A stretch of DNA of 41,690 bases from a bacterium (lineage in GTDB: Bacteria; Fibrobacterota; Chitinivibrionia; Chitinivibrionales; Chitinivibrionaceae): positions 1 through 41,690 of the forward strand of contig JAIFMU010000013.1 of assembly GCA_020048285.1 (NCBI GenBank). The letters run 5' to 3'. Numbering within the stretch: position 1 is the stretch's first letter; each line of letters opens with the position of its first letter. Below the pieces are notes generated by a model that was given only the letters and a program-made list of their open reading frames with translations, did no database searches and had not been told where the DNA came from. A program made the translations under genes and the position numbers. Shown here piece by piece: positions 21,698 to 41,690 of this stretch.

Positions 21698-21720
21698 GGC
21701 GTGAGAAACATTAAAAATCG

Positions 21721-21867
21721 CTGATTTCACAAGAGTATTCGCTGATTATACAAGTGTTTTTACTGATTTTGCAAGTTGTTTTGCTGATTAAGAAAGTTCT
21801 TTTGCTGATTATACAAGCTTATTCGCTGATTTTATTAGATTGTCCGCTTGATTTATTTACTATTTTC
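21721..21867. repeat. 21-bp-period degenerate tandem array A (seven units)
   Basis: CTGATT recurs at 21721, 21742, 21763, 21784, 21805 and 21826, with CTTGATT at 21847: seven units with an exact 21-base period. The unit core is CTGATTATACAAGT, followed by a T-rich stretch ending TTTTCG. The array lies between the EF-G terminator and the ribosome binding site of the XRE regulator. A period of two helical turns puts every core on the same DNA face, as expected for cooperative binding sites. It is open in one frame as a hydrophobic heptapeptide repeat, but has no start site or composition to support coding. Confidence 0.85.
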
Positions 21868-27958: not shown

Positions 27959-28402
27959 TCACGACCAGAGATACGCCTCATCATACGAAACCCCGTACCG
28001 ATCACAAATCCCGCGAAGTTCATCCTTAAAATCCAATTCTTTATGATGCACCTTCTGATTGTCGATATACCGAACCAGCTGATCCAAATGAGACTGACTG
28101 ATCGAAAAAATCCCGTACCCATCCTGCCAGTGGAAATTCGGATCGAACTGTTTCATCCATTTGGAACTGGGCCGTTTGATCTCTTCCAGAAGCATCGCCG
28201 CAGTAACGGTTCTCGGCAGTGAACAGGCGACATGCACATGATTCTCTGTTCCGCCAACCCGATATGCTTCGCACTTGACCACGCGAATACACTCGGCGAT
28301 ATACCTGTGAAGATGTTCCAGCTGATCAGCGGGAATCAGATTCTCTCGATTTTTGGTTGAAAAGACAATGTGGCAGATCATTTTTGAAAGTGATTGCGGC
28401 AT
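27959..28402 (-). CDS. Solo IS200/IS605-type Y1 transposase (RAYT-like)
   Basis: The 147-residue protein is a single-domain HUH/Y1 transposase. The metal-binding HUH pair is HVH at 55-57 (ENHVHVACSLPR), and the nucleophilic tyrosine is probably Tyr112 in LVRYIDNQKVHHKEL. The stretch HWQDGYGIFSIS (91-102) is typical of this group. I chose ATG at 28402, which has AAAGGGGAAATT before it; the in-frame ORF extends further upstream but without family similarity. No tnpB accessory gene and no IS ends are seen. The 3' side adjoins the inverted REP-like cluster, so the protein is more likely a REP-associated transposase than part of an active insertion sequence. The catalytic residues are intact. Confidence 0.88.
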   Translation of the reverse strand: MPQSLSKMICHIVFSTKNRENLIPADQLEHLHRYIAECIRVVKCEAYRVGGTENHVHVACSLPRTVTAAMLLEEIKRPSSKWMKQFDPNFHWQDGYGIFSISQSHLDQLVRYIDNQKVHHKELDFKDELRGICDRYGVSYDEAYLWS

Positions 28403-28499
28403 AATTTCCCCTTTGTTACCCCTTGTTTTGTTATCAAAGTGTACAGTAAGAACAACCGGATTTTCAACCCTGCCGATTCTTCCGTTCGCAACCAATCAT

Positions 28500-28517
28500 C
28501 CCACGGAGAATCGGTGG
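28500..28517. repeat. Dispersed CACGGAGAATC repeat, copy 2
   Basis: CCCACGGAGAATCGGTGG lies just before array B in the 28403-28881 gap. It matches the copies at 27652 and 37400, and is preceded by CAACCAATCAT, which also occurs in the 58-bp repeats at 22179 and 22296. Confidence 0.65.
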
Positions 28518-28544
28518 TGTTTGATCCGAGTCCTCCCATTTTTC

Positions 28545-28838
28545 AAACATGACCACCCAAACCTGAAGAATCCCCCAGCCCTTTCAAGAATGACCATTCA
28601 TTCATAAGGAATGAGTATCAAACCACAAAGAATGACCGGTAAATCGTTAAGAAAGGGTATCAAACGGTGAAGGATGACCGGTAAATCGTCAAGAATGAGC
28701 ATGAAATTCAATTGGTTATGGCATTTTTTGCGGAGATTCTCCGTCACACATGGAACAGGTATCTCAAATCGCTGAACACGACCGTATAATCGTTGAACAT
28801 GACGATGAAAGTCATCATGTTATGTGGCTTTTTCTGCC
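28545..28838. repeat. 21-bp-period degenerate array B (two sub-arrays with a repeated tail)
   Basis: Variants of AAGAATGACC recur at 28545, 28566, 28586, 28607, 28628, 28649, 28670 and 28691: spacing is 21 bases except for one of 20. A second set (GAACAGGT, GAACACGA, GAACATGA) starts at 28753, 28774 and 28795, again 21 apart. Both sets share AAATCG or ATCGT before the core. Each set ends with a similar tail: GGTTATGGCATTTTTTGC (28714-28731) and TGTTATGTGGCTTTTTCTGC (28819-28838). The array fills most of the 28403-28881 gap between the transposase start and the cysteine desulfurase 3' end. All frames carry stops, so it is not coding. Confidence 0.85.
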
Positions 28839-28881
28839 GTGTAGAGCAACCGTGCAATTCCGGTTCAACGTGCGATGTTTG

Positions 28882-30006
28882 TTAGCGTAGTTCCGCAATG
28901 GTCGATTCGAACTGATCCAAAAACTGTATAATTTCCGATTCGGTCGTCTTGGAAGAGAGGGAGATTCTGATCGCATGAGCGGCCCGATCTTCATCGCCGG
29001 TCATGGCGAGAATAATCGGGGAGAGTTCAGTTTTTTTCGAAGAACAGGCCGAGACCGTGGAGATATAAATCTCTTTTTTTACCAACCCGTGAAGGATCGT
29101 TTCGGGGCGAATTCCCGCTACGGAACAGTTGAGAATATAGGGCGACCCGGTTTCGGGCGAATTGATTATCACGCCGTCGATCCCGTTGAGTCGCTGGTGA
29201 ATGATCTGGTTGAGTCGCGTAACTTCGGCGTGTTGAACGGGGAGATTTTCTGTGGCAAGGCGAAGGGCTTTGGCAAAAGCGGCGGCGCGAGGTACATCGG
29301 CTGTTCCCGAGCGAAGATCAAACTCCTGCCCCCCGCCGATCATCTGAGATTGAATGATTTGTCGTTCGCGAAGAATCAGCGTACCCGATCCTTTAAGCCC
29401 GAAAAACTTATGCGCCGACAGGGAAAGAAAATCTACCGGGCACTCTTGTAATGAAAAAGGGATCTTTCCCACGCCCTGAACCGCATCGACATGGAACAGT
29501 GCCCGGTGATTTTTGAGCAGTTGTGCCAGTTCGCGGATTGGATTGATCGCTCCTGACTCATTGTTCACCATCATAATCGACACCAAAATCGTGTCGTCGG
29601 TGAGCACTTCGCGAACTTGTTCCACGGTTACCGCGCCATCGGCCCCGACCGGGAGTCGCGTGATTCGGAAGCCTCGCTGTTCGAGATACTCCATGACATT
29701 CGCCACAGAGGGATGTTCGCTGTTGGTGGTGATCAGGTGATTACCTCGACTGCGATACATTTCCGCAACTCCGCGAATTGCCAAATTGTTGCTTTCGGTT
29801 GCGCCAGAGGTGAAAATTGCTCGATATCCCGCGCCATCGAGGAGCGTCGTCACCTGTGATCGCGCCTGTTCGAGCAACTGTTCCGCTCGTTCACCGATTT
29901 TGTGAAGTGAATGAGGATTGGCCCAAAATGATTCGTACACTTTGGTATATGTTTCAAGAACAGATGGTTCCGGTGGGGTCGTGGCGGCATTATCAAGATA
30001 GATCAC
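28882..30006 (-). CDS. Cysteine desulfurase (NifS/IscS family)
   Basis: The 374-residue PLP enzyme takes sulfur from cysteine for Fe-S cluster or thio-cofactor assembly. It begins MIYLDNAATTPP. PLP contacts are His98 (NSEHPS), Asp174 and Gln177 (HVDAVQG), and the Schiff-base Lys200 in SLSAHKFFGLKG. The sulfur-accepting Cys321 lies in STVSACSSKK, a short loop of the NifS-like group II type rather than the long IscS loop. The start is GTG at 30004-30006, preceded by GGAGAA. The upstream gene on the same strand encodes a cysteine-cluster protein 54 bases away, probably in one operon. No iscU is present, so it is not a full ISC operon. Confidence 0.92.
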   Translation of the reverse strand: MIYLDNAATTPPEPSVLETYTKVYESFWANPHSLHKIGERAEQLLEQARSQVTTLLDGAGYRAIFTSGATESNNLAIRGVAEMYRSRGNHLITTNSEHPSVANVMEYLEQRGFRITRLPVGADGAVTVEQVREVLTDDTILVSIMMVNNESGAINPIRELAQLLKNHRALFHVDAVQGVGKIPFSLQECPVDFLSLSAHKFFGLKGSGTLILRERQIIQSQMIGGGQEFDLRSGTADVPRAAAFAKALRLATENLPVQHAEVTRLNQIIHQRLNGIDGVIINSPETGSPYILNCSVAGIRPETILHGLVKKEIYISTVSACSSKKTELSPIILAMTGDEDRAAHAIRISLSSKTTESEIIQFLDQFESTIAELR

Positions 30007-41425: not shown

Positions 41426-41599
41426 TTTATACTAATCCTTAAAACAATTTTATTTATACTTTTCAACTATTATTCAAAAGGTAAAACCAAAAGTCAAACT
41501 AACAACTAGATAGTGTGGCGAGAATAACTAACCTAAATTATATCTTTTTGCGCCTTAACTGCCAGTTTCGCACACTACTCACTCTAAAAAGGTTGTTTT

Positions 41600-41690
41600 C
41601 CCCGTCATGACAATGATTCACCCCGTCATGACAATGATTCACCCCGTCATGACAATGATTCACCCCGTCATGACAATGATTCACCCCGTC
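41600..41690. repeat. Perfect 21-bp tandem array C, cut by the window edge
   Basis: Units starting CCCCGTCATGACAATG begin at 41600, 41621, 41642 and 41663, all identical and 21 bases long, with seven bases of a fifth unit at 41684-41690. The array continues beyond the window. Read on the minus strand, the unit shares the core CATGAC and the TTG and TCA ends with the array B unit at 28795, so C is probably the same family in the opposite orientation. At 41510-41576 an imperfect inverted repeat (TAGTGTGGCGA and TCGCACACTA) precedes it. Confidence 0.95.

Follow-up and report, generated by a model that had tools for sequence, protein, structure and literature searches.

The repeat runs and their tails at the C199 locus

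The stretch of DNA analyzed here (the window) is the whole of contig C199, 41,690 nt in length, from a 3.4 Mb genome of 272 contigs that is 70% complete. Judged by a V-ATPase subunit, the nearest named relatives of this uncultured bacterium are Chitinivibrionales and Chitinispirillaceae MAGs and a Fibrobacter sp. MAG, which places it in the Fibrobacterota. Within it an intergenic repeat site is found between a Y1 transposase gene and an aminotransferase gene. The genes and repeat features, with their coordinates in the window, are:

27959..28402, minus strand: IS200-like (Y1) transposase gene of the REP-associated (RAYT) type (Pfam PF01797, E 2.3e-20), a neighbour with no sign of belonging to the array
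28543..28710, plus strand: array 1, eight 21-bp rows with a consensus near GAAGAATGACCGGTAAATCGT; reported by TRF with period 42 and 84% match
28708..28720, plus strand: tail 1 (edge module), TCA-ATTGG-TTATG; likeness to tail 2 reaches about 28731
28711..28752, plus strand: gap between the arrays, 42 bp, exactly two unit lengths
28753..28814, plus strand: array 2, three rows that keep the phase of array 1; related unit GAACATGACSATGAAA..
28812..28824, plus strand: tail 2 (edge module), TCA-TCATG-TTATG; likeness to tail 1 reaches about 28838
28882..30006, minus strand: class-V aminotransferase (cysteine-desulfurase-like) gene (Pfam PF00266, E 2.3e-71), a neighbour

The 3' end of the aminotransferase gene faces tail 2, and its orthologue in a congeneric genome is 79% identical. 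The repeats run head-to-tail, are non-coding, lie between genes and exceed chance, as in an intergenic minisatellite. Identity at a lag of 21 bp is 0.48 in array 1 and 0.56 in array 2, compared to 0.26–0.28 in shuffled sequences, and the 21-bp period stands out from the shuffles with z 5.7 and z 4.7, respectively (overall range 4.7–6.1; 0 of 5000 shuffles reached these values). An earlier note had described two repeat runs at this site, of eight and three units, ending in the same tail. Both runs, the shared tail and the tail sequences quoted were borne out, as was the division into eight and three rows, but only about six of the eight rows in array 1 are clear and the two leftmost are badly degenerate. 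Two variants alternate within array 1 to form a 42-bp higher-order repeat, which is why TRF prefers a 42-bp unit there.

With the 21-bp rows counted back from the end, the two runs both close on ATGA..ATGAAANTCA, followed by five variable bases and TTATG. The best alignment of the two tails, GTTA--TGGCATTTTTTGC against GTTATGTGGCTTTTTCTGC, has 15 of 17 aligned bases identical with one 2-base gap. An equally good score was reached by 0.5% of random 25-mer pairs from the window, so the tail by itself matches better than 99.5% of such pairs, and the alignment of last unit and tail from one array to the other holds; against shuffles of the partner the tail pair gave p = 0.026. As judged by these sequence comparisons, the likeness of the tails beyond the last unit is real and modest by itself, and it is convincing once the second locus described below is added. 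A T-rich stretch of the tail (GGC-TTTTTT-GC) is found at the C199 locus only.

A second locus with the same layout

A search of the whole source genome revealed one related place (C197:22990-23310, L026), and a BLAST search with the C199 array across 61 related genomes gave matches in the source genome only. The C197 array sits between ATP-grasp-like and decarboxylase-like genes (names read from the translations, without a family search). The flanks of the two arrays are unrelated and the sites are non-orthologous. REP-like hairpins occur near the C197 array; a dispersed repeat of REP type, carrying the hairpins CACAGGCCTTCGACCTGTG and GCCCGCTTCGGGGC, is common to the source species (L026 8364-8420) and the congener G001 (contigs C242 and C468).

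The order of parts at C197 is that of C199, namely array 1, tail, gap, array 2 and tail, with units like GAAGAATGACCGCGAAATCGT in the first array and like GAACATGACCATGAAACCGT in the second. The first arrays of the two loci share 19 of 21 unit positions, whereas first and second arrays share 13–14 of 21 (13 of 21 for C199 array 1 against its own array 2). Unit types therefore sort by position in the module and not by locus, which indicates that the two-part layout predates its presence at two loci. The four ends have (T/A)CA-N5-TTAYG in common, with identical spacing in the alignment. The C197 tails resemble one another as well (TTACGATTGATC and TTACGTTGGATC), and within each locus the tails are slightly alike past TTAYG (p about 0.03–0.05), an extra likeness that is not accounted for by descent of the module alone. 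This within-locus likeness would be expected if array 2 and its tail had been copied from array 1 and its tail at C199. The earlier note had named a recent local duplication of the segment as what would undo its reading, but the sorting of array types by position speaks against such copying, which would moreover need to have occurred twice with the same 42-bp spacing, and we consider it very improbable.

An ungapped alignment of C199 and C197 runs from inside array 1 through tail 1 and the gap to where array 2 begins. At both loci the first core of array 2 comes exactly 42 bp after array 1 ends, and further cores follow at +63 and +84. The 30–33 bases between have no detectable similarity in the two gaps (p 0.84), although the gaps are equally long. 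The two sub-arrays are thus in register and can be read as one array in which the middle two units are degenerate. Array 2 differs in copy number, with three units at C199 and five or six at C197.

The tail is not a general feature of arrays. Among 80 sampled array edges, 5 carried CA-N5-TTAYG, with 0.45 expected; four of these are the C199 and C197 edges that defined the motif, leaving only the fifth as independent, and that one was itself derived from a search. The fifth edge (G001:C161) belongs to a different array in the congeneric species, which ends AAAATCA-GTTTG-TTATG and whose units are not significantly similar (12 of 21). It is a weak match (E 0.8) to a sequence model built on the four ends, and the model gave no further strong match in the source or congeneric genome. 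A strict two-unit-consensus pattern scanned against genome contigs and viral contigs returned 0 matches, phage and plasmid records contained no match to the array, and no described counterpart was found in the open-access literature, which does not prove that none exists. The directionality suggested by the earlier note is upheld, as the tail lies on one side only at both sub-arrays of C199, at C197 and probably once in the congener.

As examples of such directionality the same note gave a fixed 3' boundary or a processing or termination signal, which at the RNA level would make the tails terminators or processing sites of a repeat transcript. Short T-runs, T6 and T5, in both C199 tails are compatible with such an RNA-level end, but they are absent at C197 and in the congener. 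No terminator-like site was detected in 28380-28900 (shuffles had a mean of 0.7), and there is no GC-rich stem-loop with a T-run at the tail. The five ends fold at z +1.2 to −1.35, no better than shuffles, and hairpin ends were ruled out on the same values. Orientation to the flanking genes is not constant either, the array running against both of them at C199 and with them at C197 and G001:C161. With no promoter-like site on the plus strand and no Rfam match in the window added to this, terminators or processing sites are the least probable explanation of the tails, and we regard them as extremely unlikely.

Tandem arrays elsewhere in the genome and lineage

Genome-wide statements made here are founded on targeted searches and on about 840 kb of sampled sequence, some stretches of which were chosen for holding arrays. 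Of the 56 array calls with periods of 12–60 in that sample, 22 had period 21 and seven had period 42, and periods of 20–22 or 41–43 bp dominate. Arrays first classed as intergenic had a period of 20–22 in 21 of 25 cases. Unit sequences vary from locus to locus, the more diverged arrays have their conservation clustered in a core, and several contigs end within arrays. Similar arrays are present in the congener, and at least one further family of the order (G025) has them too. The ATP-grasp-like gene of the C197 locus is likewise followed by a 21-bp array in the congener, but one built on a different unit, so an array can stay at a site even as its sequence changes.

Two further arrays lie in the window. 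A perfect 21-bp array of CCCCGTCATGACAATGATTCA closes the contig (41596-41690). It recurs at the end of contig C5, where it passes into another 21-bp array, of CGTTACATCGGCGTTTTGTGT. C199 and C5 are probably adjacent, with the arrays breaking the assembly, and arrays account for several contig breaks in this assembly. At 21708-21857 a degenerate 21-bp array (GCTGATTATACAAGTGTTTTT) directly follows the terminator-like hairpin of the EF-G gene. A segment of about 100 bp at 41501-41600 has 72% identity to one in C218 (L073 3006-3105) and partly matches C120 (L190 1130-1173), each near a tandem array. At L165 3532-3787 and L122 1-134, neighbouring sub-arrays are seemingly opposed around a short centre, as read by eye.

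In G025 an array of about 25 units of 21 bp lies near a RAYT gene (L215 5207-5753). Because 21 is divisible by three, the array is crossed by long, repetitive reading frames that could be annotated as false proteins. An association of arrays with RAYT genes was considered and rejected, as arrays were present at 4 of 29 RAYT loci, a share that does not clearly exceed the density of arrays in the genomes examined.

Phasing, proposed descent and relation to known repeat systems

Conservation within the units is clustered, in a core AAGAATGA and an AAA about 10 bp further on (p 0.024 for C199 array 1 and 0.038 for C197 array 1); C197 array 2 had no such clustering (p 0.77). Over 18 arrays the clustering combined to a Stouffer z of 5.3, an upper estimate because some sets were picked by their core. 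Constant spacing together with clustered conservation suggests, at the level of sequence, that the cores are candidate sites for a DNA-binding protein. The argument that spacing is selected draws on two loci, few for that purpose.

The explanation we favour, giving it an even chance of being correct, is that the C199 locus holds one helically phased, non-coding DNA repeat array whose tail is a conserved edge unit of a module shared by descent. With a unit of about 21 bp, equal to two helical turns, the conserved core of 8–9 bp would recur on one face of the DNA. The middle two units would have lost their core, making a single array look like two, and each run would close with a variant unit, the tail (T/A)CA-N5-TTAYG. 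The module as a whole, from array 1 across the 42-bp gap to the second tail, would be older than its two unrelated intergenic sites, so that the tails would be shared by descent, by whatever route the module was copied. Interior units may have been homogenised by slippage or unequal exchange that spared the edge units, and the edges would thus have stayed recognisable. The claim of the earlier note that simple slippage does not explain the repeated end stands in so far as recent slippage would not give a recurring edge. It does not stand against slippage or unequal exchange as such, because both make the inner units of an array alike without touching those at its edge, the pattern seen here.

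The main rival is that slippage made and remade the arrays as neutral minisatellites, with the tail a decaying edge unit and with phase and clustering devoid of function. The difference in array 2 copy number between the loci, the greatest degeneracy in the edge units, sub-arrays at other loci with related but separately homogenised units, and the different array at the congener's orthologous site downstream of the ATP-grasp gene would all be expected of such a process. The concentration of periods at about 21 and 42 bp genome-wide in place of a spread, the exact 42-bp gap at both loci and the clustered conservation within units would not be, and we consider this rival possible though somewhat unlikely.

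Alternatively, the runs could be orphan transposon ends, their units bound by a DDE transposase of the Mu/Tn7/IS21 type (several direct repeats per end), with the element ending in ..CA and followed by 5 bp of target and then a preferred TTAYG. All five ends have CA, five unrelated bases and TTAYG, the phased direct repeats are multiple and end in CA, and the array family is found at non-orthologous sites. Ends of IS21 consist of multiple direct repeats at 23-bp spacing, whose two conserved blocks lie about 10 bp from each other, and they finish in a terminal CA; IS21 insertion gives 5-bp target duplications (PMC10122671). The arrays resemble these ends in their direct repeats, two blocks and terminal CA. 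The source genome, however, has no match to the IstA family (NF033546), an absence that is not final at 70% completeness, and its sole IstB_IS21 match is weak and falls in a 483-aa protein that is probably DnaA. The units of C199 and C197 have no inverted copy within 300 bp, and near both loci all strong genome-wide matches to the end model are on the plus strand, none on the reverse. The 5 bp after CA were not found beside a CRTAA partner within 3 kb, although a solo end would lack one. Arrays elsewhere differ in sequence and reach about 23 units. The only element with a Mu_transpos_C transposase and an AAA ATPase found in the genus, in the congener (L117 / L120, G001:C239), has no 21-bp array nearby on its 3.7-kb contig. 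Orphan transposon ends are in our estimation quite unlikely.

Small as the tail is, following it up brought to light a lineage with dozens of unrelated intergenic tandem arrays, most of which share a two-turn period. Extending the phased-array explanation, it is conceivable, if unlikely in this full form, that the lineage carries phased intergenic arrays of putative binding sites (about 21/42 bp) whose sequence turns over fast but whose spacing, position and edge modules persist. The DNA-binding proteins acting on them would then form an undescribed family. These might be nucleoid organisers, or transposon-end binders for which the arrays serve as target-immunity decoys. Selection on the spacing would mean that an undescribed DNA-binding system acts on the arrays; otherwise they would reflect a mutational process strongly biased in length.

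Compared with REP/RAYT systems, the likeness consists of a RAYT gene about 140 bp from the C199 array and REP-like hairpins near the C197 array, yet the units here are no hairpins, nor do the array ends fold, and RAYT genes have no clear excess of arrays beside them. Repeats with one constant side are also found in CRISPR-like arrays with a leader, whereas the units here are 21 bp, head-to-tail and without spacers, and no cas gene was seen beside the array. Like the arrays, the ends of IS21-family (IstA), Tn7 and Mu elements have several direct repeats spaced by about two helical turns, each with two conserved blocks, and a terminal CA; here there are many more units, and no inverted partner, transposase or target-site duplication was found. 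Bacterial intergenic minisatellites (VNTR) are likewise short non-coding tandem units of variable copy number with interiors more homogeneous than their edges. The arrays described here differ from them in that periods in the sampled genome are mostly about 21 or 42 bp, that one dispersed family has a conserved edge, and that phase is kept across a non-repeated gap.
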